From positions 4,079,001 through 4,143,000 of the forward strand of contig JAUKPH010000022.1 of assembly GCA_030549335.1 (NCBI GenBank): DNA of 64,000 nt, written 5' to 3'. Shown one piece after another: positions 1,920-28,035 of the stretch (position 1 is the stretch's first letter; each line of letters starts with the position of its first letter). The position numbers were made by a program, and so were the translations under genes. Origin of the DNA: Pontederia crassipes. Taxonomy: Eukaryota; Streptophyta; Magnoliopsida; Commelinales; Pontederiaceae. The notes beneath the pieces were generated by a model, which made no database searches, was not told the origin of the DNA, and was given only the letters and a program-made list of their open reading frames with translations.

Positions 1920-1921
1920 GT

Positions 1922-1933: not shown

Positions 1934-2163
1934 CATAGTTTGACTCGTATGTATAGGATCTTAGTATGTCTAAGCCATAGTTTGGCTCGTATGTATAGGG
2001 TTTTAGAATTTGTAAGTCATTGGTTAGCTGAAATGTCTAAGTAAAATGTCTAAGTGTAAAGTCCATGTGCAATCATCATGAGGTGCCACCGAACCTGAAG
2101 GTATGTGTTTTACTTTAATTGGGTAATGGTAGACATTGATGTATGGTTATTGTATGATGATAG

Positions 2164-3645: not shown

Positions 3646-5576
3646 TTGATTCCTTCGTGTCTTCGGGTGCACTGTTTTCCATACATTCATCCATACAATA
3701 AACATAAATTTGCTTTCCTATCAGTGAAATATTTTTTTCTAGGATATCCTTCTTCCTATCATGGTTACAGGTGCCTTGATCGAGTCTCTGGTCGAATTTA
3801 TGTAGCTCAACATGCTCGATTCAATGAGTCCTCATTTTCCTTTACTCAACCTCCAATGTCCTCTCATGCACCTTCTCCAATGTCCTCCACTCCATGGTTT
3901 GCGATTGCTTCTACTCCACCCTCTATTGCTTGCACTCCTCCATCACAATCGATTTCTTTGCCACTCGTGGAGGTGCTCTCACTGGCATGAGAGGGACGCC
4001 AATTGAGGAATAGACCTCGAGTGAATTATAGATAACTTGATCTTTCTAAGAAACACTCAGCACTTGTTTCCACTACTACATTCATGACTCCTCCTATGTC
4101 CACTTTGCCTCCGCTTGCTCCCACTTGCCACTCCACAACAATCAAATTGCCACACTGGCATGGAACCATGATCAATGAACTGAATGCCCTGCTATCAAAT
4201 GGTACTTGGTGTCTCACTCCACGACATCCTGACATGAATGTGATAGGCTGCAAGTGGATATTTTGCATCAAACTTAACCCTAATGACACCATTGATTGTT
4301 ACAAGGCACGAATAGTTGTAAAGGGTTTTCATCAACAACCAAGTGTTGATTATGGTGATACATTCAGTCCTGTCGTCAAGCCAACCACTATACGTCTGGT
4401 GCTCTCTATTGCAGTTTCCAAAAACTAGCCAATCCATCAATTGGATGTTAGCAATGCATTATTGCATGGAGATCTCATAGAGAATGTTTTCATGGAGCAA
4501 CCACCGGGGTTTCGTGATGAACAACATCACAACTTTGTGTGCCATTTAAGAAAATCCATATATGGTCTCAAGCAAGCCCCACACGCTTGGTTTCAACTTC
4601 TTCATGCGGAGCTTACTTCTTTTAGTTTTTCAGCATCCAAAATTGATGTCTCTCTTTTCAATTTTCAAAAAGGTACCTTAGTCATGTATGCTTTGATATA
4701 CGTATCATCATCACCGGATCCAATGATTCTCTCTTGTAATGCTTGATATCTCATCTTTAGTCTAGGGTAGCTTTCAAAGATCTTGGACCGCTCAGCTTCT
4801 TCTTGGGGATTGAAGTTATACCTCAGAATGGTGGTCTTCTATCGTCTCAGCGCAAGTATAGCAAAGACATCTTGAGTCGAGCCAACATGAACAATGCTAA
4901 GCCTCCAGCGGCTCCACGACAACAAACCTCATCTATCTCGATGACATCTTTTAAAGATGTCACTATGTATCGAAAAATTGTTGGTTCCTTACGGTACTTG
5001 GCATTCACTAGTTCTGATATTTCATATGCTGTTGGTGTTGTTAGCCGACATACGCATGCACCATGCGATAATAATTGGCAAGATGTCAAGCGAATTCTGC
5101 GATACCATCGCCATACTATGGATTATGGGATCTTCATCTCGACTTCACTTGAGATCCATTTTTATGCATTCTCAGATGCAGACAGGGCAAGCTCAATGAA
5201 TGACCGCAAGTCTATTGGTGATTTTGTTATCTTTCTAGGCAAGAATTTGATTTCCTGGACATCCAAGAAACAATGATATCCAAGAAACAACGATCAGTCT
5301 CTCGCTCATCTACTGAGTCTGAATATCATGTCATGGTTGATGCTACCACTGAGTTGTTATGGTTGAAGTCTTTATTGTGTGAATTGCACCAGCAACCACC
5401 TGTCCTATGGTGTGACAATCTAAGTACTACATACTTAACCTCCAATCCTATATTTCACTCTCGCACAAAGCATATTGAAATCGATTTTTATTTTGTTCGA
5501 GATAAGGTTGCACAACGCCGCCTTATTGTGAAGTTCATCTCTTCAAAAGATCAACTTGCCGATTCTTAACTAAGCC
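3646..5576 (+). pseudogene. Copia pol fragment: integrase end, reverse transcriptase, RNase H
   Basis: Consecutive frames spell the C-terminal half of a copia polyprotein. An integrase C-terminal piece (FLGYPSSYHGYRCLD) comes first. Reverse transcriptase follows ([51 protein letters not shown]). The region where the YVDD-type catalytic motif is expected, near 4690-4800, is broken. RNase H comes last ([38 protein letters not shown]). Gag, protease and the integrase core are absent, so the copy is 5'-truncated at its junction with the gypsy remnant. Stops at 4426 and 5274 and several frame changes disable it. A polypurine tract and 3' LTR follow. Confidence 0.85.
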
Positions 5577-5654
5577 AATCACCAAGCATCAATTCCAGTT
5601 TTCAAAGACAAGTTTCGCCTCCTCCCTCGTTAGTAGGCTGTGCTTGCGGGGGGA

Positions 5655-5858
5655 TGTTAGAGAAGATATCACTTAGAATCTTAACTACACAATTAGCACT
5701 TAGTTATAGATTTGATCTTCTCATTACAATTTGTTACAACTTATTCATATATTGTTATGGATAACTACTGCTACCGTGTATATAAAAACATATCAATATA
5801 CAAGAGATGATCAAGGGAAAATATTGTTGTAACACTTTCTTATTTTGTCGCATCAACA
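5655..5858 (+). mobile_element. 3' LTR of the truncated copia element
   Basis: A polypurine tract (TGCGGGGGGA) ends at 5654 and the LTR opens TGTTAGAGAAGATATC. A plausible CA end is at 5857-5858. No partner LTR exists upstream because the element is truncated, so the end is approximate. Confidence 0.6.
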
Positions 5859-6322
5859 CCATTTATATAAAATAAACTGCATGTCCAATGAGCAAAACCA
5901 ACTCGACCCGATCTAATTGGATTCAATAATGACATTGACGGTGATGCAGGAGGCCGTGGGCGATTCCAAAGATGTTGTAGAGTTCGGGGCAGAAGCAGCT
6001 GCCGACCACAACAATGGCACTGAGTCCTGCAACCGCGGCATCTCCTTCACTTCTGATGGATCCAACGACGAGCGTGATGATTCAAATTCCAGCAAGAATG
6101 GCACGGCCATGATATGGGTGAAGATCGCGACGGTCGCATTGGATGGCGCCGCTGCGGCAGATTCAATGATGTGATGCAGCTAAACTCAAAATATCTCAAA
6201 CTTTTAGCTAAATTTGATTGACACATTTTATTAGCGATATAGTAGTCTCAAATTTGACTCGTTAATTTTGTTTTAAATGATTATTATATTCTTCATTCCG
6301 ATTGCAAATTAGTTAAATGTTT
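5859..6322. other. Spacer with one GC-richer open frame of unknown nature
   Basis: A local GC rise contains an 85-codon plus-strand frame (5917-6174, starting MDSIMTLTVMQEAVGDS) and a 65-codon minus-strand frame (5913-6110). I recognise neither. Base composition is gene-like compared with the flanks, so a captured or broken host exon is possible, but no splice context or domain supports it. Confidence 0.25.
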
Positions 6323-6847
6323 GGATTATTTCTATAAATCTCCCCTAAACTATCACGATTTTCCACATCTAACACGAGACTACGAGCTTATTTTTTTATA
6401 TCCCTAAACTATCATTTTTTTCACTTTAGTCCTTTCGTCTACTTTTGTTATATTTTTCGTTACTTTTGATTTTTCTCATTTATGAATAGACTAAATTACC
6501 CATCCCTTCATAACACATCAAATAATAAATATAAAAAAGAAATAAAGAAAATCGGGAGAGGGTAATTTAGGCTTTTCATAAATGACAATTTTTTTGTTTA
6601 CCACTTTAATTCTTCCAACGATTTTTTAAATTTTTTTAAATTTTTATTTCATATTTTCTAGAGGGAGGGTAATTTAGTATTTTCATAAATGGGAAAAACT
6701 AAAAGTAGCAAAAAACATAATAGAAGTAGACAGAAGGACTTAAATGAAAAAATAGTGACAGTTTAGGGATACAAAAAAATAAATCCGTAGTTTGAAGTTA
6801 GATGCAAAAAATTGCGATAGTTTAGGGGAGGTTTATGAAAATAACCC
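6323..6847. mobile_element. Mutator-like non-autonomous element (525 bp)
   Basis: The element has long terminal inverted repeats. The left end runs GGATTATTTCTATAAATC and the right end, read on the minus strand, GGGTTATTTTCATAAACC; similarity continues inward through CTAAACTATC. It is flanked by a near-perfect 9-bp duplication, TAAATGTTT (6314-6322) and TAAATGTTA (6848-6856), the size typical of Mutator-like elements. The interior is AT-rich and codes for nothing. The same family recurs at 36797-38273. Confidence 0.8.
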
Positions 6848-6856
6848 TAAATGTTA

Positions 6857-9800
6857 ATAACGTGAATCTCAATTTTTTTTATTAATTAGGACCTATGGGC
6901 TCCTTGTTGTAATCTAAAAATGAATAGAATAGAAACAAGGATTCTAGTATAAAAGATCGATAGAAAAAGAAGAGATAAAAATGAGCAAAAGAAAAAGGAA
7001 AGCCTATTGAAATGATCACATGTTTATTCAAAATATTTTTGGCCTTAGATCTTGGTAACAAAAAAATTCAAGATGCCTTATTAATTGATTTGAAATAATT
7101 AACTGCTTAAGTTATTTAATCCTAATAAAAATTGGGTCGCGAAAATATAATAAAATATTTTTAACTTATGTAATATAAGCGATCTTAAGTTGACCTTGGG
7201 AGGCAAAAACCTTCAAACCCGTACAATTTTTGTTTTTTGTTTTGCATTTTTGAAGGTATCTATATAATCTTGGGAATTAGGTTAACGACATTTGTATCAT
7301 CTACCGCTTTTTTTTTCTTTCAGATAGAAGAAAAACTGCTGCCGTTGTCGGAGAATATAACCTAAAAATTAAAAGAAAATTATAGATTTTCTCTTCATCG
7401 ACCTATTTCTCTCATCAGCGGTCTTCCCCAAAAAAGAAAAGAAAGGAAATAGAAGACCAAACAAACAATTTTGCGAGAAAAAAAAGAGAGAGGCAAACTT
7501 AATTGATCCAGGATGAGAAGCCCACATATTATTTGTGTTTTTTACAGCGTTTTTAAAATCGAACTGAACGGTCCATCCAGTTCAATCGCGAACCAATCAT
7601 CGGTCTAGTTTAACATTAAAATTTATTTTTGAAAAAAAACTGGATTACAGTTCGATTCGGACAAAACTGGGTTGAACCGAAAAATTGGTTCAAATCAGTT
7701 TTTTTTCAAATCAATAAAAAATTATTATATGGACAGAAATAATAAAATATGGAAGGTATAATAATGAAATAAATGTGGAGATACTAGGTAATAGAGTAAA
7801 TTATGAAGTGTGAATTAGAAAGGAAAGCTATTATAAGGAAATTAGATTTGGAATTTGTAGGGAAAAAATAAAGGTGAAAAGAGTAGAAAGTATAAAAAAT
7901 AGGAAAGTAATAATGAGGAAGTTAAATTTATGAATAAGAAGGAAAGAAATTAAATATATATACAAAATTCTAAAGATAATATTTTAAAATAAGAAATTTA
8001 TTTTATTAAAATTATTATAATAAATATATGCTTAAAAATTTTAATTAATGCTTAAAATAATGATTATTACATGATTACTTAATTATTTAATATTTTATAC
8101 TTTTATTTATACTATATTTTTTGAAAGAAATTTAAATATTATTATTTTAATAAAAATCATGTTCAATTCGATCGAATTCGGTCAAACCCAATGATTTGAT
8201 GCCCAGTCCAATTTTTTTAAAAATTGATTTTTGGGATTGTCCAAAAGCCTTGACTAATGAAACATCAACTATGAGAGATCAAAAGTCAAACTTTTGCCAT
8301 TTTATTTAGGAGGAAGAATCATTCCACATAATTGATAAGACAATAGATTTTTTTTAGAAGTGTTATTTTGGGGTTATAAAGGGAGTTGCAAAAATCTAGT
8401 ATAAAAAAACTTAAATGAAGTCCATTCTCTCTAATATATGTATCATCTTGAATAAAATAGATCAAATCCAGTATTTTAAAACATATGTGACAGTTTTCGT
8501 TTTTTTAAAAAAGGAATATCTCATTTTATTCATAAAAAAATTAAAAAATAAATGACCCAGATATAAGTTTTAGTGATGAAATTTAGATTCGAGATGTACA
8601 AATCAAAAGAATTACTATTAAGAACTACTAATAGTTAATCCCGTTGGCCGAAAAAGTGTATGTAACAACCACTGAGAAAAAATGATAAATTAGGAAAACT
8701 AATCAACAATTATTAATCACTTGAAAAAGATCCTAATTCCCATTGAAATAAGATCCAATCCTATCCAAACAAACTTCATAAAATATAAGATTTAAACGCC
8801 TAACTAATATCCTCACAACCCCTTAATCTGGCCACTAATTTTAGATTCCTTAGAGACATAAAAAGGGGTGAGGACTCTCTCTTCATCGTGTTTTTCTTCC
8901 CCCCTCTCCCTCTCATGATCCCATCTAATGGCAAGTGGAGGATGCACCATGAGGTCGCCGACAGCGGAAGTGATTGATAGGAACCTTGGACGAATGACAT
9001 TGTCAAATGGGTGAATAAGGAATCACCTTAATTAATCTCTTTAGAATAGATTTGATCAAATCCTGTTTAAGTTTTCCTCCATTTCTTGCTGTCCAGATTT
9101 CATAGCAAAAATTATTAAATGATTTAGGATAAGATTTTGTCGTACTTAAATAATGAAAAAATTGAACGATAGCCCTTGAAATCTAATTTTTAGATTCAAG
9201 AATAATGTCAATTAGAGTTATCGATCAAAAGTTATTAATGAAATATCGTCATGCTGTCAGACTGTCACGGACAATAGCGAAATAAAATTGTAGAATATGC
9301 TAAAAACTATATTGATGTGATAAAAATCTAATAATTTAGGAGATGCTAGAAGAGATTGTTAGCTTTCTTTTTCAATTGGAATCTTTGAAAAATAACATTT
9401 GTAGATCGAGTTATTATTTTTGCAACTCTCACCACTTAAGACATCATGACAGAATAAGTTCAAATAGATTGTGACATTTTATGAGAACAATTGTCGAGGG
9501 ATTAAAATATGAATTTTTTATGCATGACATCCTTGATTGTCTATTTTTAGGGAAATTAAAAGTCATGAAATATAACGTAGATAAGTAAAGTTATAATTTA
9601 TTTATTGATTGTAGGACAAATATGTTCACACATATCCAACGATATCTCATTATTGATTGATTATTGATCACTTTGTTCTCCATTTGATTGTATAATTACC
9701 CTAATTGATTATTCATTTCACACATGATTTATTGTAGTGACATTATGACATTATTGATTTGTTTGTTCATCAATGAACCTCAAGATGATGCCTACTGATT

Positions 9801-10878
9801 GTAGTAATGTAAAGTTTACCAAGATGATAATAAGATAAACATTGGGTCCACAGTCAAAGCCAAATGCATTATCATTACCGTTCATTGTTAAGGGTCATTC
9901 TCTTTCCTCTTTGGAGGGCACTGTCATGGTTTGATCGCCCATTGATCATTGGCACGCGGTTATATTGTTTGCTCGGCACACCCCCGAATTAAAGAGCCCA
10001 TCCTATAAATGAAAAGATGAGGGATTTTGAAGTCACTGTTAAAGTCACTTGTATGTTAATCACATAATTATTGAACAAAGTTACCGAAGCATTGCTAATA
10101 AAGTATCGAATAAGTGTTACAGTTATTGAAGCATTGTCGCCATTACAAAATATGTCACTATTAATCATATTATTGTTACTATGGATTATCATATCATTGT
10201 GCCATCATCATGATGTTGTTTAATATGAAGCTCATTGATATTGAATAAAATATCGAATCATTGTTATCGAACATGTATATCGAAGCATTGTTACCAAATG
10301 GACATCGAATCGTTGTTACCGAACATGAATATCGAATCATCGTTATCATACATAGTTACTGAATCATTGTTACTATTACCGATTATGACTACCAAATTAT
10401 TAATACCGAACATGCTTACTGAATCATTGTATCATTGCTCATTTATGTCTTATCAGATAATTGTTATCATCATCAATAATGATAGTGCTCTAACATGTTA
10501 TACCTCATTGTTCATATGTTTATTGATTATTATTATCAATTATTATCATCAACCTCTTGATCCCATCTCAATAAAATGTATGCTTTTAATATGAATTTAT
10601 CGATTTATTCTATTGAAGATTAATCATTGTTTCCCTACTTGGGATGTCAAGTTTACGGAAGAATTGCCTCTCCTATGTTTGATTCCCACATACCTAAGTT
10701 CGTGATGGTTGAAGTGATGTGCTGCGATGATGCTCAAGAGACAACAAGGCACATAAACTTAGGGATCTATTTATCTTGTTTTGTGTTTTATTAGATTATG
10801 ATGTAATAGCTATGAAATATGTTATTTGAAATTATGTAGTAACTCTTAAACTTCTACACTTATTAATTCTCCTATTCT
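6857..10878. other. Gene-free AT-rich spacer
   Basis: No convincing gene is present. Between about 7545 and 8240 both ends carry poorly matched inverted sequence (TTTTTAAAATCGAACTGAAC on the left, a related AAAATTGGACTG-type end in reverse on the right), as in a degraded hAT-type MITE, but I could not fix its ends. From about 10060 to 10440 there are degenerate direct repeats built on ATCGAATCATTGTTACCGAA. Otherwise I see only AT-rich text. Confidence 0.4.
10060..10440 (+). repeat. Degenerate short tandem repeats (ATCGAATCATTGTTACCGAACATG-like)
   Basis: The words TATCGAA, CATTGTTA and ACCGAACATG recur about every 24-35 bp with many substitutions. The 119-codon frame over this stretch (10235-10594) is a repeat artefact of low complexity. 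Confidence 0.5.
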
Positions 10879-11512
10879 TGTAACATTCACCACTAGCGTG
10901 TGATATTATCCGCTCTGCCCTCACCCTAGACTCACGGTTTTCTAACACATCACACCTGGTGAAGGACATGTTCTAATATATACCCAGCATCTCTCCCGTG
11001 AGTTATGCATGTGAGACTAATCCAAGGCATTCCTCATGCACCCTTCCCCCCTTAGGGGACTCAACGTCATCGTTGAGTGATCGCACCCCACCATGCACAG
11101 AGGTCCACACGGGGTGGCTCTGATACCATATGTAACATTCTCCACTAGCGTGTGATATTGTCCGCTCTGCCCCCACCCTAGGCTCACGGTTTTTTAACGC
11201 GTCACACCTGGTGAAGGACATGTTCCCATATATACCCAGCATCTCTCCCGTGACTTATGCATGTGGGACTAATTCAAGGCATGCCTCATGCACTGTGATC
11301 GCACCCCACCATGCACAGAGGTGAGCCACTGCGTTACTCTGATACTAGGTGACGCATTAGAAAACCGTGAGCCTAGGGCAGAGCGGACAGTATCACGCTG
11401 ACTATAGAGGTGAGCCATTGTGCTACTTTGATACCAGGTGACGCGTTTTGAGAATACCGTGCGGGCCGAGGCCCAGAGCGGACAATATCACACGCTAGTG
11501 AAGAATGTTACA
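10879..11512 (-). mobile_element. TRIM-like retroelement, internally duplicated and inverted
   Basis: The element runs TGTAACATTC ... GAATGTTACA and is flanked by a perfect 5-bp duplication, ATTCT (10874-10878 and 11513-11517). Two direct ~220-250-bp units start at 10879 and 11131. Between them, on the minus strand, an LTR end is followed by TGGTATCAGAGCC (about 11115-11127), an initiator-Met primer site. A third, inverted partial unit fills 11338-11512. There is no coding capacity. The minus-strand order LTR, primer site, about 100 bp, LTR is that of a terminal-repeat retrotransposon in miniature. The inverted third unit is unusual. Confidence 0.7.
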
Positions 11513-11601
11513 ATTCTACTTTTATGAATTCCTTAATGTTTCTTCTCTCCTATTCTATTTCTATGAATTCCTTAATGTTGATCACTAGTTTTAGTCAAAT
11601 G

Positions 11602-11966
11602 TGTTAATAATGCCTTGAATCCTACTCCAACTGGAAACCCATCTGGACTCAAATCCTGAAATAAAAGAAAAATTGTCTGACATATTCTGTATATTTCTTT
11701 ATCATGAAATTGTTAAGGAATTGATTTATTTTCTTATCACAAGGTAAGTGTCCTATTTTTTTAGATTAATATAGAGTTTCAATTGATCTCTAATTCTTAT
11801 CATTTGTTAAAGAGAGTGCCTATATAAACTCCCTAGGAGTCCAAAGAGAAATTAATCTGATCTTGTAATCCTCTTCTGTTTCTTCCATCTAATAAAATTC
11901 TGCGTCGCCTTAAATTTCTCGGATTTTCTCGCGGTGCATAATTTCTCTCGTACAGAAATCCTCACA
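11602..11966 (+). repeat. 5' LTR of the copia element
   Basis: It starts TGTTAATAATGCC and ends AATCCTCACA. A TATATAAACT promoter-like box lies near 11821, followed by the likely transcript start region. It pairs with 14443-14803. Confidence 0.9.
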
Positions 11967-11969
11967 AAT

Positions 11970-11981
11970 TGGTATCAGAGC
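11970..11981 (+). other. Primer binding site, initiator tRNA-Met
   Basis: TGGTATCAGAGC sits three bases after the 5' LTR. Confidence 0.9.
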
Positions 11982-12016
11982 GAGGCTTCATCGGTGATCC
12001 TCTGTCAGACATAGAG

Positions 12017-13345
12017 ATGACATCGCACAATGTCAACATTGAGAAATTCATAGGACGAAACAGTTTCAGCCTCTGGCAGATTAAGATGCGGGCACTTCTG
12101 AAATAATAAGGAGTCTGTGCGCCGTTTGCAAACGCGCCGAAGAACAAACCGAAGGAGGAAGACTCGAAAGGCAAAGAAAAGGAGATCGTCCTCGTTACTT
12201 TGGCGGCACATGAGGAGAATGTGTACTCGATGATTCTGTTGTGTCTGGCGGATGAGGTGATAATCGAGGTCGCAAATGAAGAAAAGGCAGTCGGTCTGTG
12301 GTTGAGACTCGAGAGTTTATATATGCCAAAGTCTCTCACCAACAAGTTGCTATTGAAGCAACATCTGCTCTCTCTTCGCATGCAAGAAGGTATCCCTCTG
12401 AAAGATCATCTTGATCAGTTAAATTTTTTGTTGATGAAACTGAGAAATATCGATGTTAAGATCGAAAATGAAGATGCCGCCCTAATTCTGTTAGATTCGC
12501 TTCCTTCATCATACGAGAATTTTATTCAATCTATGATTATCGAGAAGGAAGCTATAAGTCTGGAAGAAGTAAGATCAAGTCTTCATACTCGTGAACTTCG
12601 GCATAGGGCATCTGAAAATTCTGCAGAGATTCAGGTCACAGGGTTGATAACAACCACAGAGAAGACAAATCCTAAAAAGGGTAAGTCAAAGAAGAACGTC
12701 AATCCAAAGGACATATGCAACTATTGTAAAGAATCTGATCACTGGAAGAAGGACTACCTCAAGAAGAAGAAGAAAGACATAGTTGCTGCAGTAGCTCACC
12801 AGGATAGTGAATCTGATGACGATTTGGCTCTCATGGTGTCTGATCAGAGATGTTCGAAAAAGAGTTGGATTCTCGACTCAGGATGTTCCTATCATATGAC
12901 TCCGCACAAAGAGTGGTTCTCAACTTATCAGAACATTGATGGTGGAAACGTCATCATGGGCAATGATGCAGTATGTAAAATAGTTGGAATCGACTCAATT
13001 AAGATCAGAACTCATGACAATCGGGTGAGGACATTGACAGAGGTCCGTCATGTTCCGCAATTGAAGAAAAATTTGATATCATTAGGAATTCTGGACTCCA
13101 AAGGATATCGGATGGATGCCGTAGAAGATATTCTCATGGTCATCAAGGGTGATGCTGAAGTCATAAGAGGAGTCAGTCAAAAGTCCTTGTACATACTACA
13201 AGGCACAATAATTTCTAATATGACTGTAGTAGGTAGTTCGTCCAAATCAGAATCAGAAGCATCCACGTTATGGCACATGCGACTTAGAAATATGAGTCAG
13301 GCATGGATGGATATCCTCAATAAGCGCAATCTTTTGGATGGTTAG
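12017..13345 (+). pseudogene. Copia gag, protease and pre-integrase part
   Basis: ATG at 12017 opens in frame with the long 12200-13345 frame. Two consecutive stops (TAA TAA, 12104-12109) interrupt it 29 codons in. Gag features follow (KSLTNKLLLKQHLLSLRMQEG, a copia capsid signature). The zinc knuckle at about 12715-12756 reads CNYCKESDHWKKDY, with tyrosine where the last cysteine is expected. The aspartic protease carries DSG in WILDSGCSYHMT (about 12870). The pre-integrase domain ends at a TAG at 13343-13345. The products would have formed particles and processed the polyprotein. The stops and the altered knuckle make this copy inactive. Confidence 0.88.
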
Positions 13346-14442
13346 AAGATATCTGAAATTAGATTTTGCAAGCACTGTGTTTTTGGCAAGTAAAGATGAC
13401 ATCAATTCAGCAAAGCCGTGCACAAGACGAAGGCAACACTCGATTACATCCACGCTGAGTGTTGGGGCCCATTGTGTTTCATCTCTAGGAGGTTCTAGAT
13501 ACTTCGTATCTGTGATAGATGATTACTCAAGGATGACATGGGTATTCATGATGAAGCACAAGAGAGAGGCATTCGAAACTTTCAAACAGTGGAAGACTCT
13601 AGTGGTGAATCAGACATCGAGAAAGGTGAAACGCTTTCATACTGATAATGGCTTGGAGTTCTGTTCGTCTGAATTTGATCGATTCTACAAGGATGAAGGC
13701 ATTGCTAGACATCGCACCGTCAGAGATACACCACAGTAAAATGGTGTAGCAGAACGTATGAACTGAACTCTTCTGGAGAGGGCACGGTGCATGCTTTCTA
13801 ATTCTGGTATGAACAAGTCATTCTGGGCTGAGGCTGTTAGCACAACATGTTACCTTGTCAATCGAAATCCTGCAACCGCGATCGATATGAAGACTCCCAT
13901 TGAGGTATGGTCAGGAAACTCTACTGATTATACTAATATGAAAGTCTTTGGTTGTCCAGCATATTATCATGTCAACAAAGGAAAGTTGGAACCAAAGGCC
14001 AAAGAAGGAGTCTTTATGGGATATGGTGCAGGTGTAAAAGGCTTCAGAATTTGGTCTCCTTCATATCAGAAGGTTATTCACGGTAGAAATATATTTTTTG
14101 ATGAGATGTCTATGCTCAAGTAGAAATCAGATGTTGTTGACTCAGCAGAGGAGGGTGTCAACAAACAGGTGGAGTTTGGATCTCATCTGAACAACCAGAG
14201 TCTGAGGAGCAAGTAGAAGAAGCAATGACAAGTTTAGCTGCCGGACGTGCACGCAGATAGGTAGGTCCTCCTAATCATTATGACTTTGAGGACATGGTTG
14301 CATATGCATTTTAAGTAGTTGAAGAGGTGGAATCACCAGATCAAGTTATGAGGATGCTATCGCACGTGTAGAATCAGAACAGAGACTGGCGGCGAAGAGA
14401 GCGTTAGATATCTGATTGGAGAATTCAATTCAAGGTGGAGAT
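13346..14442 (+). pseudogene. Copia integrase core and abrupt 3' end without RT
   Basis: After a frameshift the pre-integrase/integrase region continues. FVSVIDDYSRMTWVF contains the first catalytic Asp area. FHTDNGLEFCSSEF holds the second Asp, and the NGVAERMN block holds the Glu. Stops lie at 13737-13739, 13764-13766 and 14121-14123. A short tract like the linker before reverse transcriptase is readable at about 14270-14400 (NHYDFEDMVAYAF). The polypurine tract then arrives with no RT motif, so RT and RNase H were deleted before or after insertion. Confidence 0.85.
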
Positions 14443-14803
14443 TATTAATAATGCCTTGAATGCTACTCCAATTGGAAATCCATCTGGACTCAAACTCTAA
14501 AATAAAAGAAAATCTGTCTGACATATTCCGTATATTTCCTTATCATAAGATTGTTAAGGAATTGATTTATTTCCTTATCACAAGGTAAGTGTCCTATTTT
14601 TATGATTAATATAGAGTCCCAATTGATATCTAATTCCTATCATCTGTTAAAACCAGTGCATATATAAACTTCCTAGGGGTCCAAAGAGAAATTAATCTTA
14701 TAAAATCTTATTCTGTTTCTTCCATCTAATAAATTTCTGCGTCGCCTTAAATTTCTTAAATTTTTTCGCGGTGCATAATTTCTCTCGTGCAAAAATCCTA
14801 ACA
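14443..14803 (+). repeat. 3' LTR of the copia element
   Basis: Aligned over its whole length with 11602-11966. The first dinucleotide is TA instead of TG, a point change, and the LTR ends AATCCTAACA. The polypurine tract precedes it. Confidence 0.9.
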
Positions 14804-15343: not shown

Positions 15344-15498
15344 TCACGGCCTTATCACAGCCAGCACGATGACCAAAACTATGATGAGAAGAATGATAAT
15401 CGCAATGAATGTGCATTTCCGTGTGTTCTTCTGCAGCTTTCTTGCCTTGTGCAGCATGTTCACTCCAGATTGCACGTGACTGACAGCGCCCTCAACCT

Positions 15499-15553: not shown

Positions 15554-15859
15554 AGTTGGAGACTGAATAGTAGCTACATTTAACACCGCAAATTTGTTTC
15601 AGGAAAGTATGACTAGTGAAGAAGAAGGTATTGACATGTTACATGAGATTCAATGTTGTCGAGCATTTCACCTTGCGCCTCCACCAGGATTGCCATGTCA
15701 AGGAATATCTGCACGAGAAAATGGACATAGAAGATTCACATCTGATGCATAAATTCAGGGGTTAGATAAAACTGAATTGAACAATGAGCATTTAACAAAG
15801 ATGTCTCCAATTAAAATGATAAAAACAATGTGAAGTTTTTTTTATTTTTAGGCAGAAAC

Positions 15860-18800
15860 TGTAATACCCCAAATTTTCCATAAAAATTAAAATGTATTAT
15901 TATCTGACGTCGGACTTCCGGGCGACCGAAACCCAGTGGACGCACTACCGGACAATCTCTTTCGGACGTCGAGAAATGCAATGGAACGGAAAATCCCAAT
16001 CGTTTTCTGATCTCTTCACCATACTCTTCATTAACACATATTTTGTAACTCTTGCACTCATGATCGTGAGGGATTTAAAGGATCACGAAAACCCCCACAT
16101 TGAAGGCTATAAGAATCCATTTATCTCTCCCTTTCCTTTTCATCTTTACTGTTGTTCCTCATTTTCCTCTACGTGTTTCATGCTCCCTCTCCATCGGTCT
16201 CGACAGAGCACGAGAGGGCAGGTCCGACAGGTCTTTCAGGCGTTGATGACGCAGGAGGGAGCACAGGAAGAAGCTAGAGGCTCCATCCAGCGAGGACGAA
16301 CCAGGAAATGCGACTAAAAAGGTGTGTTTTCGGGATCTAGTTCATGAGGTAGTTTCCTGAGAATTTTTGCATGTTTTTAAGGACTCCAATAAGATTCAGT
16401 TCATGCTAGTGTGGGTAGAAATCGTGCCTCATGATTATTATGAGATTTTAGATATGATTTCATTGACTACATAACTCGGCCGAATGATATTGCATGATAT
16501 TATGACATGTTTTGTTTGATGAGTGATAAGATAAGTTGGCATATGATTTAGACAAATAATCGAGAGATTATTACATGCTTTGGATTGATAACTTTCTGCT
16601 GTTTGAGTTAAGATAGATTGGAATAATTTTCTATGACAGATGATAAACAAATCGGCAAGTTATTTCATATAAAAGAAATTTTTAAAAACGACATGTTTAA
16701 GATGAGATTGATATTTAGTTATGTTTCTAGAGCATGATATACGTAAAAAATAAAGTTAGTATAAGTTTAGAATTGTTTTGTATTAAAAACTGATTGAAAA
16801 CCTAAGGATTCCGCAATGACCTTCTATCAAACTGAAGCGGACGATCGAAACCCTTACGGACGTCCGATTCAACTCGGCAAGAGTATGGCGACATCTATGT
16901 CGGACGTCTAAAACTCGATCGGACGACCGATGTGGACCATAACAGAAGTCGGAAATGTTTTTGGACGACCGAATTGAAAAATATCGAAACTCGAAAATGA
17001 CGATGATAACCAGCAGGTCAACCGATCTGGATTATCAAGTCAGAAGAGCTTCCGATGGTGGACGGGAAAACCACCCTCGAACAACTGAGGAAGACAATAT
17101 TGTTCTCGCCTGACGACCGGTTAATTTTTGATCGATAGTTTAAAGTCCTAGAACCTTCTCATGTTATAATGGAGGACCGAACCTCTCTCGATCGACCGAT
17201 ATATAGTCTTGGAACGGTCGAAAAATGAACTCAGAATGGACAATTGCATCCTTTTCGGTCGATTGATGAACACAAACAAAAACGGGTGCCCGCTCCTCTT
17301 TCGGATGACTGTTGAATACGACAGAACATGACCTTAATCTAAACCCCTTTGATTTGACAAGCTTCAGTCCACCTGATTGATATCGATCGATTATGAACCT
17401 AAAAATGATTCAGAGTCATCTTGCTCCCTACAACCTTGATTGATCCAAGTGACAAAGAGGCTCATGACTAATAAGATAAAAGAAGGATTACCATTTACCT
17501 ATCTAAATGAGAGTTTCTCTCTATAGATGTTTCCGCCTAGCGCGAGGTCATTTTGCCCGACGAGGCATTGGCCGTGGCACTGATCCTCATCAGTCTAGAT
17601 AGTTACACACTTGTGTGTTTGCAATGGTATTCCTAAAAGCGGAGAGCTCTTCCAACATGGATAAGATGAAAGAATATGCATGGCTAAAGATTAATGGAAG
17701 GACTTTGTCCTTATAAAAATGAATATGAATCATGAATTATAAATTATGAACATGAGCATTGGGCTATGAACATGAACATGAAATGAAATAAAAAGGCATG
17801 AACCATGATGATGATGATATCTTTATTGATTCTCCATGATGATTTCCTCTCATACTTAATTTATATACTTGCTTCATGCATATTCTGATGGATTATCTTA
17901 TGACATATACGAACTCACACTTAGCATTATGCTAGTGATGCATGCATAATATAACATATAATTAGCCATGCATTTAATCACATTTCGATTCCTTTTCATA
18001 TAGCAAGCATAATTTTTCGACCTTATTTGCTTTAATTTTATAAAAATGAAAATCCACCCAAATTATATGTTTTATTGCAAAAAGAGCAAAAGAATAGAGT
18101 TAGGAATCCACAGAAACAAATTGAAGGCTGCCAAGGCTAAATTAAATATAACGGGTCATTATATGATCATAACGGCCGTAACAATAGGGCGTGAAAAACC
18201 CGTTACGGCCTGTTAAAATGCCCAGTTTCAGTCCTACTTCGATTTGGACACCGTAAGGACTGTTAAATCCATGTTATGGGCCGTTATGAAAGTTGTTTTC
18301 AAGATTTCTTCGACTTTTCTTGTGAATTTCAAGTCCAGATCAAACTCAAACTTTATCCTAAGCCTCAGGGATGATTAGGAAACATATTTACTCAAATTTG
18401 AAGAAGTTTTAGATGGTTTTAAAGACCTATCAAAGTCTATTCTGAATTTACTTGTTTTAACATGAAAAGACTTCGAATCAAACTGAAACTTTATGAAAAC
18501 TCGTGAGACCCCGAAGGCTATAAATAGAGGCCATAGGAGACAAAAAAAACGTGTGCTTGTGGTGCTTGGAGGTGCTTGAGACCTTGGGAGTCGTGCTTAT
18601 TGCAAAAGAGACATTCAAGTTGAAGAAGATTGCTGGAGAAGAACGACGAGCAACTCAGCGATAGGGCTCTCTAGAGATCGTCTAAAGCAAGAATTCTTGT
18701 TCTCTCCCTATTGTTTAGATGTTCTTTACCCATACTTTTTATGCTTAATTAATTCTGTAATAGAGATATTTAATCTTTATGAGAAAACTACATGAACTAT

Positions 18801-19903
18801 TTGTTAAATTTGGATTAATATAGTTATCTTAGTTTCTTTTGATTATGATTGTTGTGCTTAATGCTTTTTACTAAGATTATTATATTTTGAGATAAAACTA
18901 CAAATCAGATTTGGGGTGATTAATTTTAGGATTTAACAATTCTCAACGAATCGATTCTTAACTTAAAGTTGAAGCAATCATAACACGAAACTAGTAACTC
19001 ATCGTTTGTGCTAGATTTTGTGCGGTCTATCAATTTTTACCCAGCGAGGATAACTGTTAGTTTAAGAATTACAATTTAATGCATCTTAATATCTTTCTTA
19101 ACTGAAGATTAACTCATCGTTTGTGGTCTTAAGTTTTGCGAGAATTAAGATAGTTTGATTTACTCAACGTAGAAATCATTAATTTAGGTAATCCTAATCT
19201 GTCTCAAGAATTGAATCTATTCATCATCGTTATAATTCAATCTTCATAGTTGTTCATGTTAGTTAATCATCATCATTAATCATCCAAAATCCTTAGTCTC
19301 AACACTAATTTATTTTATTATTTAATTTTATGCACATTTATTTTCTGCTTTTATATCGCAACACCATTTTATTCTCTTAGTAAATTATTAGGATAGATTA
19401 AATTTAACTAATCCCTAGTGGGATCGGCACTCTACTCTCTACTTTATTACTTAATACGACTAGTGCACTTGTTAGCAATTTTATTTGTTACAAATTTAAC
19501 GCATCAGCTAGCTTGCTCCCCTGTGTGATCTCCATAAGTACATGAGATGATTGCGAGCCAATTGATGTGTATGCGCTGACTACAGTTCGGATGGCTTGTG
19601 CACATGGTTATCTAGAGTCGTTATTGAGTCATTTATTTAATATGGAGTTGTATGGGACCTTTTGATTATGTACCATGGCATGAACTTTTGTATGCCTTAT
19701 GTCGAGACATTTGATGTACTTTTTATTTATCTAGCTTCCGCCTTTCTTATATTATTTGTTGTAATACTTTTATTTAAGTCTTCCGCTTACGTCTCAATTT
19801 TATTGACCATCTGGGTCAACGAAAGAGTCAAAGAAGGATTGAATAAAGTAGCGACTGAAAGAAGATTTCGCCACGTGGCAGGGTAAAATTTTGGGGCACT
19901 ATA
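15860..19903 (+). mobile_element. Gypsy solo LTR with a second solo LTR nested in it
   Basis: It opens TGTAATACCCCAAATTTTCC and ends TTGGGGCACTATA (a decayed CA end). It is flanked by perfect 5-bp duplications, GAAAC, at 15855-15859 and 19904-19908. Without the nested insert the LTR is about 2.47 kb. No pol or gag is present, so it is a product of LTR-LTR recombination. It shares CGGACGACCGA-type motifs with the LTR at 1-1919. It lies in intron 11 of the syntaxin gene, on the strand opposite to the gene. Confidence 0.85.
17936..19506 (+). mobile_element. Nested solo LTR, TGATGC...GCATCA family
   Basis: Ends TGATGCATGC and AACGCATCA are enclosed by perfect GCTAG duplications (17931-17935 and 19507-19511). 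CTATAAATAGAGGCC at about 18517 is a good TATA box on the plus strand. The 3' part carries CTAGTGGGATCGGCACTCTACT, a phrase I associate with LTR ends of the Athila/Tat gypsy lineages (inference). The same family is inserted in reverse at 42163-44039. Confidence 0.85.
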
Positions 19904-20691
19904 GAAACCTCAACAATATGTAATAAAAAGTATGTGGTAATTAAGAAACAGGTCAGCTATCTTAAATCCAAGCTAAGGCAAAGTCCAGTGAGGGACATCA
20001 TCACAAAGTACCGCACAAAATGAAGCCAAACCATCAGGACATAATTAGTCAGAAGGCAGTATGGACCTTAGAGTGAATTATCGCATGGCAACAGAGTCAC
20101 CTTTTCTAGATACTTTGGAGTTAAGGTTCTACTTCTCATTTTTTGAATATAAATATTCCTTGAGCACTTCATCTTAATAGTGTATTTCAACATATTGTCA
20201 CGAGGCTAGATGTCTAGAACATATCTTACTTTTACTTGTGAGCCAGCATGAAAAAGTTATGGAAAAAATAGTAATATCCATTTTAATGGCGCTTGGTTCT
20301 ACAACACATTTCAACCTTGTTTCTCTAGACTTCTGATTCAAGCTTCTGTGTTAAAAGTGGAATTACCTGATGTAACTCAAGAAGTTTCTTTTCAATGTCT
20401 TTCACAGCATCATGACGCTCTTGGATTTCTACAAGGGTGTCCAGCACCTGCAAGGAAATGGGAAAATGGACTTGTATTTTATACCTACGTTGCTCTCCAG
20501 AAAGGTTCAGAAAGTTTATCTATATCTTATAACCATATATTGTTTGTTAAAGAACAGAGAAGGACGACATTAAGTTTGACAAAAAGTTATTGGAGTGCTA
20601 ACATTTTTTTAAAGAGCTCTAAAAAAGCATTTTTTAGAGATAAGAGCGATTGATTAGCACTCATATAGTGATCAACATGCTGAGGGAAAAC

Positions 20692-20876
20692 CTGGCCTCG
20701 GCCTTGTTCCTCAATTGCTTTCTGGAATATGTGCTCATCTTTCCCGTTTCTATTAGCCGGTCAATTGTCTGATTGAATAAAACGGGACATAACAAAAATT
20801 AATCTAAAACCATTAAAAGTGATGATAAATTTTGTGAAGCATGATCTTACCTCTTAATCGGGATGAGTTCCTGTTA
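20692..20876 (-). other. Two inactivating lesions in syntaxin exons 9 and 10
   Basis: Exon 9 (20851-20876) joins exon 8 in phase and reads VTGTHPD, then TAA (20854-20856), then GAG. It lies in a position where relatives have acidic residues. The stop is codon 174. Exon 10 (20692-20768) is 77 bp where 26 codons are expected. The reading switches frame within the A-run near 20739-20743, between LIETG and DEHIFQKAIEEQGRGQ. Skipping exon 9 does not help, because exon 8 joined to exon 10 gives a stop at the third codon. Confidence 0.85.
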
Positions 20877-21204
20877 CTGGTTTTTTTTATGGAAATCAGA
20901 AGAAAATATAAGTTAGATAACAATGCATATCTGAAAGAAATGTTGTCAAAGTAACAGTGGAAAGCTACATAGCAAAGCCTGTTTAGATAAAGTTCAGAAA
21001 AAACCTGTGTATACCCTTCTCTGAACAACCTCATGATATTCTGTTTGGATTTTCTTTCTCAAGCTCTACAAGAGATTAAAGCATTACAAGATGGATTTGC
21101 AGGTTAGGAAGAACAATTAACAATGGAGAAACTACTATATTTACATTGTTCATATTATTTCAACATCATCCCGAAACATAATTATCAGTGTGAAGTTGTT
21201 TGCC

Positions 21205-21370
21205 TTTTTTATAGCCAGTCCCAAGCCCGGATAAAGGAGGAGGGTTGTATTAGGCCTTGACAGCCAGCGTAAAACTCTGTCGAATCTCATGAACATGAAT
21301 CAACGAATATGGCGTCGTATGATCCATGTAGCCGACCCCACCTAGTGGGATAAGGCATTGTTGTTGTTGT
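21205..21370 (+). mobile_element. Au-type SINE with 14-bp target duplication
   Basis: The body runs from AGTCCCAAGCCCGGATAAAG, through ACAGCCAGCGTAAAACTCTG and CCGACCCCACCTAGTGGGAT, to a GTTGTTGTTGTTG tail, as in the Au SINE family of angiosperms. Perfect duplications TGAAGTTGTTTGCC lie at 21191-21204 and 21371-21384. It sits in syntaxin intron 7 and looks near full length. Confidence 0.88.
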
Positions 21371-23008
21371 TGAAGTTGTTTGCCATTTATTGTGTTGTAC
21401 GCATGAATCAGCCAGCCAAAATCCATTTGATATTCAATAATAGCATAGTGGAATTATGTTAAAAGACAGCAATGAGTAAGAAATTCTCTGCAGAATATTT
21501 CCAAGCGCTAAATGCATCATCCACTTGGAAGGGGTGGATGAATGGTTGGAAGGAGAAGAGAAACTAGTGTTAAATGAGATTTTGAACTCGTAGGTAAACA
21601 TTATTAAGTTGTAGGAGGCCAAAAATGCCCTGCGAAGAGAAATTGCATAGAGATATATCATACCTGAAAGTCAGTCATCCTTTCTTTTAACTTTTTTCTC
21701 AAGGCCCTGCAGATATTAACAGTTTGGTGAACGTTATGCATCCAGCCATATATTCATCACAAAAGAACGACTTTTCTGTTGACTTGGCGAGAGAAATTAC
21801 ACAGTTTGTGCAGTTCTAGTTCTATCTGTGCTTGATCCCTTTCCACATCCAGGCTTCTTCCTGCTGGCTAAGTTCTAGCAGGACCAACAGACCCAAGGTA
21901 CATAAAGCTCAGTACATGTTGCATATTATTTGTGGAGAAAAAGAAGCATAATAATCCATATATAATAGTCCAACTCAACTTCAACTGGAGTGCCAATAGT
22001 GACCTTAGACAGGACAAAAAGAAAAAAGGAAAACAGAATAGGCTTACATCTCTGTCCAGCTCTTCAATTTTTGATTTAGCCACACGGGCAACCTTCAAAG
22101 CTTCATCTGTTTCTTTCTCCATTTGGCGCTTGACAGCTGCAATGTTTCATAATTGTACACTTTGTTGTATTTCAGTCATAGAAGAAACCAGCACATGAAA
22201 AGGCACATGTATTTTGTGGAAAATTGTAGCAAAAAGCTCTATTATTTTCTGTCTATTTAATCACTTATATACAAGACTTGAATCTTTAAACATATTAGGA
22301 AAGATGAAATCTGGAAGGCTGGAATCAAATCCCATAATCCCATAATTATGGGGCAGCCTGTTAGGAATAGGAAAGCTACCTATGTGCTCCTATTTCTAAT
22401 AAATACAATATATTGTCAAAAGAAAAACTTCCTAAAATAAAATAGATCCTGCATGATCTTGCATATGATTTCTCAAACTCCCCCTCAAGCTGGTGAATAC
22501 GTATTGTCCATTCCCAGCTTGGATAAAATAACCTGAAAATTGAAGTTACTTAAACTCTTGGTAAGAACATCAGCAAGTTGACTATGCGTAGAAACATAAA
22601 GTGTGCATATCGGTCCACTATCCAATTTCTCTTTGATAAAGTGCCTATCAATTTCAATGTGCTTCGTCTGATCATGTTGTACTGGATTGTGAGCAATATT
22701 GATTGCGGACTTATTGTCACAATAGAGTCTTATGGGGCCTTCCCACTTAATCTTCAAATCTTAAAGAATGATTTTCAACCAAAGTAGTTCACACATACCT
22801 TGAGCCATGACTCTAAATTCAGCCTCTACACTTGAATGAGCTACCACATATTGTTTTTTACTTCTCCATGTCACAAGGTTTCTACAAAGAAATGTGCAAT
22901 ATCCTAAAGTTGACCTTCTATCAACAATTGATCCAGCAAAATCAGCATGCTTCAAGTATTAAGTTTCCATTCCGCCTAAATAAAATACCTTTTCCTAGCA
23001 TTCCCTTA

Positions 23009-23085
23009 GAGCGGAATGGCGTCGTATGATCCATGTAGCCGACCCCACCTAGTGGGATAAGGCTTTGTTGTTGTTGTTGTTGTTG
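23009..23085 (+). mobile_element. 5'-truncated Au-type SINE inside the copia pol
   Basis: Seventy-seven bases match the 3' half of the Au SINE (GTAGCCGACCCCACCTAGTG ... GTTGTTG). They lie between 17-bp direct repeats, TTCCTAGCATTCCCTTA, at 22992-23008 and 23086-23102. The insertion cuts the copia frame just before RNase H. Confidence 0.88.
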
Positions 23086-24474
23086 TTCCTAGCATTCCCT
23101 TAAGATAGTGTAACACTCTATAAGCTGCTTGCAAATGAACTTCCTTCGGATTATGCATAAATTGACTAATCAAATTCAATGCATATGCAATATCTGGCCT
23201 TGTATGAGATAAGTAAATAAGTTTTCCCACAAGGCGTTGATACATTTCTTTATCTACTGCAACATCTTCATCTGCTGTCCCAAGTTTAAAATTAGGTTCC
23301 ATGGGGGTACTTGCTGGTTTGCATGTTGTTTTACCAGTTCCTTTGAGAAGATCTGTGATATACTTTTGTTGAGAGATAAAAATTCTCTTCTTGAAGTGAG
23401 CAACTTCCATTTCGAGAAAATATTTCAACCTCCCCAATGCCTTAATCTCAAACTCTTTAGCCAAGTATTGACTCAAAGCTTCTTGTTCCTTGATATCATT
23501 TCCTGTAACAATTATGTCATCAACATACACCAAGAGAATTGTAACATTTCCTGAAGAGTGCTTAATAAATAACGTGTGATCCCCTTGACTTTGTTTGTAT
23601 TCCATGGCTAGCATAACTCTTGCAAACCGTTTAAACCATGCTCGTGGTGATTGTTTAAGGCCATACAATGCCTTTTTCAGCTTATAAACAGTTTGTGCAG
23701 CCAAATTCCTTTTATATCCTGGTGGAACCTCCATATAGATCTCTTCTTCTAACTCCCTATGTAAAAAGGCATTCTTGACATCAAATTGATGCAACTCCCA
23801 ACCACAATTAGTAGCTACTGATAGCAACACTCTAACTGTATTCATCTTTGCAACTAGAACAAATGTCTCTACATAATCAATTTCATATGTTTACGCATAC
23901 CCCTTAGCTACCAACCTTGCCTTGTATCTTTCAATTGATCCATCAACTCTATATTTCACTGTATATAATCACTTGCAACCTACTGTCTTTTTTCCTTTGG
24001 GTAGCTTCACTAACTCCCATGTCTTGTTCTTTTCTAATGCCTCCATCTTTACATTCATAGCTTGTTTCCATTTTTCATTGGATAAAGCCTCAGATAAAGT
24101 AGTAGGTAGGATTATAACATTTAGGCTTACAAGAAACGCTCTTGTGTTGGAGAGAAATTCTTAAATGATAAGAAGTTTGCAAGAGGGTACACTAGCTACT
24201 TTGTGCATTTTCTTGTTCCTTTTCTAATAGCAATTGGAAGGTCTTGTTCGAGATTGCCAACATAAGGTTCAGATTCTTGCACTGTTGGTTCAAAAGTGTG
24301 TACCTCATTCAAAGAATTCGAGTTGGACTCTTGGATCTGCATAGGTTTAGGAACATTTGCATTCCTTCTTGTGTACACCTTGTCGAATATCACATTATTA
24401 GGGTTAGAATTGGCTTCTATATGTTTCAGTCACATATTCATGCACATGGGTTTCAACAATTGGTTCAACCCCAA

Positions 24475-24602
24475 CAATAACAACAACAACAAAGCCTTAT
24501 CCCACTAGGTGGGGTCGGCTACATAGATCATACGACGCCATATTCCTTGATCCATGTTCATAAGATTCGACAGGGTTTTACGCTGGCTGTCGGGGCCTAA
24601 CA
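24475..24602 (-). mobile_element. Au-type SINE, minus orientation, inside the copia
   Basis: The reverse complement matches the Au SINE body and ends in the GTTGTTG tail (AACAACAACAAAG on the plus strand). A 9-bp direct repeat CAACCCCAA occurs at 24466-24474 and 24603-24611. It lacks the 5'-most box seen in the copy at 21205. Confidence 0.8.
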
Positions 24603-27600
24603 CAACCCCAAGTTCAGAAGGATTCTTAGGCATCTTATTAGAACACAAAGGAGGTACACGTGTGGAATTTGGTATTTCAGATAAAAGAATTGAGAACAAA
24701 TCAAACAAGGAATCTTCCTTATCTTCTATATTGGAATTCTCCCCCTGAAGATGAGGATTAGGAAGTAAGGCTTTTGTTCATTGAATGTGACATCCATTGA
24801 GATATAGAATTATTTTTATGGAGGATGATAACATTTGTAACCTTTTTGAGTTAAAGAGTAACCCACAAAAATACATTTGAGAGCCCTTGGGTCTAACTTT
24901 CCTCTATTGTGACTATGAACATGAGCAAATGACACACATCCAAAAATTTTGGGAACCAGATTGTTTGTAGTGCTCACATCAGGATAGAATGTTCATAGCA
25001 TATCCATAGGGCTCTTAAAATTTAAGACTCTTGAAGGCAAACGATTTATAAAATAGGCGAATGTAAGAATTGCTTCTCCCCAAAACATCTTAGGAACATG
25101 ATTCTAAAACAATAAAGCTCTGGTCTTCTCAAGGAGATCTCTATTTTTCCTCTCTGCTATCCCATTTTGTTGTGGAGTATTAATACAAGAGGACTTATGT
25201 ATTATCCCTTCTTTCTGAAAATATGGAGTAAGAAATTGGTTAAATTAGTCTCTTGCATTGTTAGACCTAATCTTTTTATTTTAACACCAAACTGATTGTT
25301 GATCATAGAACAAAACCTTGGGAACACAACACTAAGATCATATTTTTGTTTAAGCAAAAAAATCTAGGTAACACGAGTGCAATCATCAACAAAAGAGAAA
25401 CCACGTGCCCCAGAAACTAGAAATAGGAGATGGTCCCATATGTTTGTATGAATGAGATAAAAAGGAACATAACTTCTTTTATTGTTGATTGGAAAAGAGA
25501 TACGCTTGTGTTTAGCAAGTTCACACACCTCACAATGAAAGCTTTCAACATCTAAATTCTTAAATAAAGAAGGAAATAGAACTTTAATAACCCTAAAGGA
25601 TGGATGTCCAAGTCGACAATGATGAAGTAAAACTTGTGGATAATTTTGGAACATGAAGAACATTTCTTAGAATTATTGATGGGCTAATTTTGACATCTCC
25701 AAATCCGGCTACAATAGTCAAGTATCCATCAGCAATAGCTATTTTTCTATTGCTTGGGCAAAGGGTATAGGTTGAGAAAATATTGGAGAAATGAGTCATG
25801 TGATCAGTAGCTCTTGAATTCATTATCCAGGAGTTGGTAAAGGTTGTACCTGAAGAAGTTAATCCAATGGAAGATGGAAGTGCACCTGAATGCACCAAAG
25901 AACAAGTACCTTCAGATTTTTCAAATTCTCCAAGATTATTAATCAGTGATCTCAACCTATCAATCTCATCTTAATTGAAACCATTTGGCTCTTGTGGTAG
26001 TGGTTTCGATGCATTTTGTGTTCCTATGGAAATATAGGTTTGCCCATCTAACATGTAAGAGGCACGAATATTCTGCAATGCTTTAGATTGTTGAATTTGG
26101 ATTGCTCTTCTAATTGAATTACTGTAGTAAATTCCTAGAGCTTGGACATCTTGAATGACAATATGTAGATAAACAATCCTTTCGAGAATGCAAGGATTAC
26201 TGCTTGGCAATGAAGGGCACAAGTTTCAAAGGCTAGAAACAAGAATCTCATAAGAAAATTGTAGCAAAAATCTCTATTATTTTATGTCAATTCAATCACT
26301 TATATACAAGACTTGAACCTTTAAACATATTAGGAAAGATGAAATCTAGAAGGCTGGAATCAAATCCCATAATTATGGGGCAGCCTGCTAGGAATAGGAA
26401 AGCTCCCTATGTGCTCCTATTTCTAATAAATACAATATATTGACAAAAGGAAAACTTCCTAAAATAAAATAGATCCTGCATGATCTTGCATATGATTTCT
26501 CACATATTTCTTTCACTTAAAGTGAAAACACATGTTTCTTTAGAAAGGTTTGAGAATTAAAATCTATGCAAGTACATTACCCTTCATATCAGCTGCCCTG
26601 GTAACAGACTTGGACTCTTCATTTGCATCCTGCAGGTTAACAGAATTTTAGTGTACAGAGTAACCCAAAACATAAAGAAAAAAAGATGCCAACCAAGACA
26701 GGATACAGGATTCCAAGGTGACTTCTGCATAATTTCAGTTGCTATCTATCATCATAAGAATCAAAATTTATTGTAAGCTATGTAATAGAAGATATAAGAT
26801 CTGGCATCAAACACAATTAACAACTCCATCTAAATTTGTCTGGTTCGGAATAGTAGATTTCATACCTGAAGCTTCTTGAGCAGATCGGATAGCTTCTGAA
26901 TATCTTTTTCTATAACTCGAACCTAAGGAAGATAACATTAGTAATCCAACTATTCAACCAGTAAGTTAATAACTAAAGAGGCCAAAAAAGAAAAAAAAAG
27001 AAAGAAAGAACAATTTGAGTGAGTAAACACAGAAAATCAAATCAGTTTCTCATTTGTACATTGCTCAATTTTTTCCATTGTTTTCTTTAAAACATTAATA
27101 TATAGGCACCTGTTTGTGGAAATCTTCCAAACCCAATTCAGTTGAATTCAAATGCGACTGTCCCATCTCTATATCTCCTAGTCCGGAGCCTTCATCTCGA
27201 GCAAGCTCGAACGATTGCTAACACAGTGGCCATCAATAAATTAGCTACTTCGTGATTGTGAGCGAAAAGAGGAAATAAGACAAATATATAAAGAGCCAAA
27301 AGCTACGACGTATTACACAGGAACACGCATTTTTTTCATTTAATTTCTTCTGTGTTGAAAAATCCAGACAATCAGATACTTTAACTCTCCAAAATCAAAG
27401 CCAACTTTTGCCTAAAACACATAGAATCATACCATCATAAGGTAAAACGATGCTTAAAACGGCAGGAACCCAAATTGAGAAATACTTCTTTTCAGAATAA
27501 AACAAGTCTTGTGTCAGAGCAGTCGCTCACAATTTCAAGCATCAGAACAAAAATTTCTCTTTTACGACGAAAACGGTAGACTCAAATCCAACTTAACACG

Positions 27601-27634
27601 GAAGTTTCGGGATTACCGATAGAGGGTTGTTCAT

Positions 27635-28035
27635 CTTGCAAGGAGCAAATCGAACAACAAAGAGCCGCCCGGAGCACCGAAATCGCAGCAGGAGGGGTCG
27701 TCAACTCGAAATGGTTATCCAGGTAGCAAGAAGAAGCCCAAATCCATTCACTAGAAGGCTTCATTAGGACTTGGTCCCGGTCGCAGACGATTCTGGAGAC
27801 CAAAACCGAGTCTTCTTCTAGGGTTTGCAAGTTCCACAAGCAAAACAGAGGAAGAACGGAAGGAAGACGAATGACGAGGAAAACGCCCGGCAGAGTTTTT
27901 TTCTTCTAATGTTTCTTTTTAAATGCATAAGAATAAACAATAACAATAAATCATACATTTTAAACAAAGCATCATGTATTTTTTATTGATGAAAATTTAA
28001 ATGGATTTTTATATTCGTAATACTTTTCTTAAGTG
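27635..28035 (-). promoter_or_regulatory. 5' flank of the syntaxin gene
   Basis: Sequence immediately upstream of the ATG (27632-27634) on the minus strand. It is GC-richer to about 27895, as a 5' UTR might be, then AT-rich. No TATA box or element is convincing enough to name. Confidence 0.35.

Follow-up and report, generated by a model that had tools for sequence, protein, structure and literature searches.

A syntaxin gene that is broken in two adjacent exons and appears otherwise intact raises the question of whether the gene has died, whether it is a second copy making a truncated protein, or whether the damage was introduced by the assembly. We addressed this question for a SYP13-type plasma-membrane syntaxin of Pontederia crassipes that lies in the window, that is, the whole 64,000-nucleotide stretch analyzed here (C22:4079001-4143000, on a 5.26 Mb scaffold of 5,257,743 bases), in an assembly of 1,132,208,429 bases in 43 contigs. 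The gene runs from window position 27634 to 15344 on the minus strand and, as an earlier note on this DNA had proposed, can be assembled from 13 exons, with AG/GT borders at 12 of 12 introns and phases that agree as far as exon 10. On that strand, exon 1 (encoding MNNPLS) lies at 27617-27634, exon 2 at 27110-27217, exon 3 at 26866-26922, exon 4 at 26581-26629, exon 5 at 22048-22136, exon 6 at 21801-21874, exon 7 at 21664-21706, and exon 8 at 21005-21065; the two damaged exons, 9 (20851-20876) and 10 (20692-20768), are followed by exon 11 (20367-20447), with the start of the SNARE motif, exon 12 (15643-15708), with its continuation, and exon 13 (15344-15496), with its end, a hydrophobic C-terminal anchor, and the stop codon. 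Because the 12 introns are present, we rejected a processed pseudogene. By eye, an upstream ATG in another frame can be seen at 27634-27764 (minus strand), and the reading frame that it opens extends into the beginning of exon 1.

The damage consists of a stop and a lost base. Exon 9 reads up to THPD and then into TAA at 20854-20856, at a position where the copies on contigs C12, C7, and C8 (described below) have a sense codon, and exon 10 is 77 nt long compared with 78 nt in the same three copies, so that it is one base short near 20738 and the frame is lost. The earlier note was thus right about the stop, about the 11 remaining exons (all of which are open), and about the loss of one base in exon 10, but not about the nature of that loss, which it had taken for a missing A near 20740; comparison with the intact copies shows no shortened A run. 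Nor is the clustering of the lesions, which it had singled out, striking, given that they are ∼35 nt apart in a coding sequence of ∼900 nt. Exons 8 and 10 have T-rich donors that look weak, but these were rejected as damage because the donors in C12, C7, and C8 are alike. The open product of the window allele is 173 residues long and ends before the SNARE motif and the membrane anchor. Downstream of the premature stop come four exon junctions, the farthest of them at a distance of 227 nt; as a stop so placed usually makes an mRNA a candidate for nonsense-mediated decay, the mRNA of the window allele is such a candidate.

Both domains of the protein remain recognizable. The N-terminal Habc domain (PF00804, Syntaxin) scores 141.3 bits on the part of exons 1-9 that precedes the stop (cut-off 26.7), and the SNARE domain (PF05739) scores 69.9 bits on exons 11-13, that is, SNARE motif and anchor are still encoded in the window but are out of reach behind the stop and the frame loss. 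These matches are far beyond chance. They are also close to the scores of unverified sequences of AtSYP132 and AtSYP123 (146 and 151.6 bits with PF00804, 67.8 and 62.6 bits with PF05739), and neither domain therefore looks eroded; the identity of the window protein to this AtSYP132 sequence is 64.0%. A search of the PDB matched 36 sequences, by name animal and fungal syntaxins and engineered constructs (best match syntaxin-1A, E 1e-19), with no plant-named entry among the 36, and a search for relatives of exons 11-13 in prokaryote and viral collections gave 590 and 85 pattern matches, respectively, none of which was confirmed.

To place the broken gene among its relatives, we turned to the rest of the assembly. 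A PF05739 profile search returned at least 35 matches among the 150 of 202 candidates that were scored; 32 of these can be grouped by eye into 16 pairs of similar score, and three are single. In 15 of the 16 pairs the two members lie on neighboring odd- and even-numbered contigs, a pattern by which the assembly appears to hold both haplotypes, assembled apart. The one exception is the pair formed by C12 and C22, which includes the SNARE exon of the window. When the DNA of the lesion region (window 20300-21110) was used as query, eight matches were found (six of six candidates scored): the window itself, one copy on C12 at 97% identity, two matches each on C7 and C8 (70%-82%), and one each on C10 and C9 (78%). 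C11, which appears to be the partner of C12, gave no match to this query among the same six candidates. The search for other SYP13 loci that the earlier note had suggested thus led to C7/C8 and C9/C10 in addition to C12, and we refer to C12/C22 as locus C, to C7/C8 as locus B, and to C9/C10 as locus A. The copy on C12 (C12:24548015-24537467) is open in 13 of 13 exons, has AG/GT borders and its own stop codon, and encodes 300 residues, with Habc domain, SNARE motif, and anchor in one reading frame. Loci A and B are likewise open in both haplotypes across the exons traced: at locus B these are 13 mapped exons, up to but excluding the stop codon, and at locus A 12 exons, exon 1 being left out. 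The 13-exon structure, with similar exon lengths, is common to the window, C12, C7, and C8. In both copies of locus A, exon 10 measures 72 nt, two codons less than its counterpart in C12, C7, and C8.

Whether C22 carries an allele or a duplicate of the C12 gene depends on how the two contigs relate outside the gene. Using a cut-off of at least 300 bp at at least 85% identity, we found 21 blocks in one order between window positions -5303 to 69089 and C12:24517000-24561787, at 86.0%-97.3% identity, a collinear stretch that measures 74 kb on C22 and 45 kb on C12. The same cut-off yields 14 blocks at 85.7%-96.5% for the C7/C8 pair and four blocks at 95.8%-97.0% for the C9/C10 pair. Far from the window, a 3 kb query taken at C22:2.50 Mb aligns with C12:22.39 Mb in the same orientation, at 88% identity over nearly all of its 3000 bases, compared with only ∼200 bases at 77% on C11 among the 40 of 785 candidates scored. 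C11 (69.8 Mb) is ∼15 Mb shorter than C12 (85.1 Mb). Most simply, then, C22 would be a piece of the C12 homolog that was left unplaced, and from this we infer that the plant is heterozygous at locus C. An intact collinear copy is present on C12 and no further copy was found on the C11/C12 pair, which points to a null haplotype, and away from both an extinct gene and a second gene encoding an Habc-only protein. For the same reason we rejected a unitary pseudogene: the lesions are there, but so is an intact collinear copy.

Transposons occur both in the introns and in the flanks of the gene. Intron 4 holds a Copia-type LTR retrotransposon (22219-26502, minus strand, ends approximate) with an RVT_2 domain and an LTR pair that is 93% identical over 257 columns; the gene on C12 has this element too (intron 4 measures 4444 nt in the window and 4493 nt on C12), and it is thus older than the split of the haplotypes. 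Two further insertions are absent from C12: a SINE-like element in intron 7 (21205-21372, plus strand), which sits between two copies of a 12-base target-site duplication where C12 has a single target site with one mismatch, and an insertion of ∼1.6 kb in intron 11 (17937-19506), pieces of which match C10 at 74%-89%. The SINE-like element, which carries a TTG-repeat tail and which we take to resemble the plant Au SINE, occurs in three copies that are 93%-97% alike (21205-21372, 23016-23087, and 24472-24608); the one in intron 7 is private to the window haplotype, and the other two lie within the Copia element. The flanks of the gene (window 1-14800 and 29000-64000) are rich in transposons as well: eight of nine scanned open reading frames, chosen from the 50 in the window of at least 110 residues, have a Pfam match at E 0.001, all to transposon domains (Copia gag, RVT_2, Ty3 capsid, RVT_1, and transposase-associated), one of them below the Pfam cut-off.

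We then compared the divergence of the coding sequences. Between the window and C12, dS is 0.053 and dN 0.0115, compared with 0.026 and 0 between the haplotypes of locus B. With locus B as outgroup and the codon of the base loss masked, the window branch has five residue-changing substitutions (L4P, A126T, R157H, V235I, and Q266H), the premature stop, and four silent changes, and the C12 branch has three residue-changing and four silent changes; two further silent changes could not be placed. The proportions do not differ between the two branches (Fisher P 1.0) or between locus C and locus B (8:10 versus 0:5, Fisher P 0.12). The haplotypes of locus A, which have no such lesion, differ in 11 codons, six residue-changing and five silent, so that by this measure locus C is not unusual; one of the residue changes at locus A is Pro in C10 and Phe in C9, and the C9 haplotype may be losing constraint. 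The ratio of exon to intron mismatches is 19:47 at locus C, 5:65 at locus B, and 12:80 at locus A, and is thus raised at locus C (Fisher P 0.0013 versus locus B and 0.016 versus locus A); these counts were made without introns 4 and 11 of locus C and intron 11 of loci B and A (transposons or unequal length) and without the untraced intron 1 of locus A. The five residue changes on the window branch are more than the 1.6 expected at a dN/dS of 0.11 (P 0.022, ignoring the error of the silent count) and fewer than the 14.2 expected under full neutrality (P 0.005, ignoring the error of the count of four). There is accordingly modest support for a loss of constraint that covers some, but not all, of the period since the haplotypes diverged, and because the C12 branch also has three residue changes, such a loss may not be confined to the window haplotype.

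Taken together, we consider it very probable that the window carries a heterozygous null (loss-of-function) allele of a SYP13-type plasma-membrane syntaxin in an assembly in which the haplotypes have been assembled apart. By parsimony, the lesions would have arisen on the window haplotype after the split, as the premature stop falls on the window branch. The broken mRNA would be translated only to codon 173, before the SNARE motif and the anchor, and would probably be degraded, and the null allele would be tolerated with the other allele and the paralogs doing the work; redundancy among the SYP13 loci is nevertheless not assured, given the rice mutants discussed below. The suggestion in the earlier note that the gene died recently thus holds for the window haplotype but not for the gene, the collinear 300-residue copy on C12 being intact.

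Errors of assembly or base calling, by which the haplotype would be intact and both lesions would be consensus artefacts on an unplaced scaffold, are unlikely. C22 is indeed a small scaffold outside the apparent chromosome pairs, both lesions fall within one short stretch, and they are known here from the assembled sequence. However, the stop arises from a base substitution, and the lost base does not shorten a homopolymer relative to the intact copies; in addition, the exon:intron mismatch ratio at locus C exceeds that of both other SYP13 pairs, and the window/C12 pair has one gap in the coding sequence where the C7/C8 and C9/C10 pairs have none. We regard as slightly less likely still that C22 is a recent segmental duplicate, an extra and decaying copy of the C12 region, the C11 allele being missing or unassembled. 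Such a duplicate would explain why C22 belongs to no apparent chromosome pair, and if young it would show similar divergence, but C22 and C12 are collinear at two places, separated by ∼1.6 Mb on C22 and by ∼2.15 Mb on C12, C11 is the shorter contig and yielded no copy to the lesion-region query, and intron mismatch in the window/C12 pair (2.3%) is no larger than in the C7/C8 pair (3.4%).

Two other readings give the broken allele a product. In one, candidate splicing around both lesions would produce a shortened syntaxin in which SNARE motif and anchor are retained, for example, by joining exon 7 to exon 11 (245 residues) or by using an AG within exon 10 as the acceptor for exon 8 (281 residues). 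Pairing the donors of exons 6-8 with the AG sites tried as far as exon 11 gave nine in-frame joins, and the part lost would be the linker and the end of the Habc bundle; on the other hand, such joins are expected by chance, since exons 7 and 11 are phase compatible regardless of the lesions and AG is frequent, and we consider this outcome very improbable. The least probable of all is that the allele makes a stable 173-residue Habc-only protein that regulates other syntaxins or SM partners, which the earlier note had envisaged as the work of a second copy. Exons 1-8 are open, and the Habc score is close to those of the intact AtSYP132 and AtSYP123 sequences. Against this stand the position of the stop relative to the later junctions, the fact that exons 11-13 are equally open, as a recent loss predicts, and the pattern of substitutions: exons 1-9 of the window branch have three residue changes plus the stop and one silent change, compared with two and three in exons 10-13, so that the front exons, for which the note had proposed a dN/dS comparison with the back, do not have fewer amino-acid changes and are no better kept. 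In one report (PMC9158536), rice Ossyp132 mutants cut at 123 and 169 residues have no apparent mycorrhizal defect. A second gene of this kind is thus not supported, the other copy being most simply a second allele, and the stop and base loss look like an ordinary loss-of-function variant. The case calls for caution: in a phased assembly, what reads as a "dead gene" on one haplotype can turn out, once the matching haplotype is consulted, to be a null allele at a heterozygous locus.

How does the window allele compare with known systems? Like the plant Qa-SNAREs of the SYP13 subfamily (AtSYP131 and AtSYP132; clades SYP13I and SYP13II), the window gene combines Habc domain, SNARE motif, and C-terminal anchor and has 13 exons, but unlike them the window allele is interrupted ahead of the SNARE motif by a stop and a frame loss. 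According to PMC9158536, SYP13II of mycorrhizal dicots has an additional exon 14, which suggests 13 exons otherwise; a tblastn search of the whole window with the unverified AtSYP132 sequence gave one convincing last exon and no sign of an exon 14. The same report has SYP13II present in mycorrhizal and absent from 10 non-mycorrhizal angiosperms surveyed, and a second (PMC7145992) has it in 16 of 16 hosts and lost in six of six non-hosts. Of two clade trees built with unverified references, both weakly supported, one separates AtSYP131/132 from loci A, B, and C at a support of only 80/83. It is doubtful that locus C belongs to the SYP13II clade and that its loss is under way, so that a natural null haplotype of one SYP13II duplicate (loci B and C being the two) would be segregating, a short-linker splice form perhaps still being produced; if true, the plant would offer a natural allele for testing the redundancy of symbiotic-syntaxin duplicates. 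Among the 12 of 162 papers listed by a literature search for an SYP13II pseudogene or loss, none mentions SYP13II, and such reports may exist all the same.

The closest parallels are in rice and tea. In PMC9158536, CRISPR alleles of OsSYP132 cut at 123 and 169 residues were used as loss-of-function mutants, Ossyp132 and Ossyp131b single mutants have normal mycorrhiza and the Ossyp131b Ossyp132 double mutant has less, and homozygous Ossyp131a mutants are dwarf and infertile. The Ossyp132-2 protein described there, cut at 169 residues and without SNARE motif and anchor, is close to the 173 residues of the window allele; the rice alleles were engineered, whereas that of Pontederia crassipes is natural. 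For the tea cultivar Tieguanyin, the phased-genome report (PMC8346365) counts premature stops in 297 allelic pairs and frame shifts in 719, so that heterozygous loss-of-function alleles are not rare, and the window case differs from them only in the gene concerned and in the presence of two lesions in one allele.
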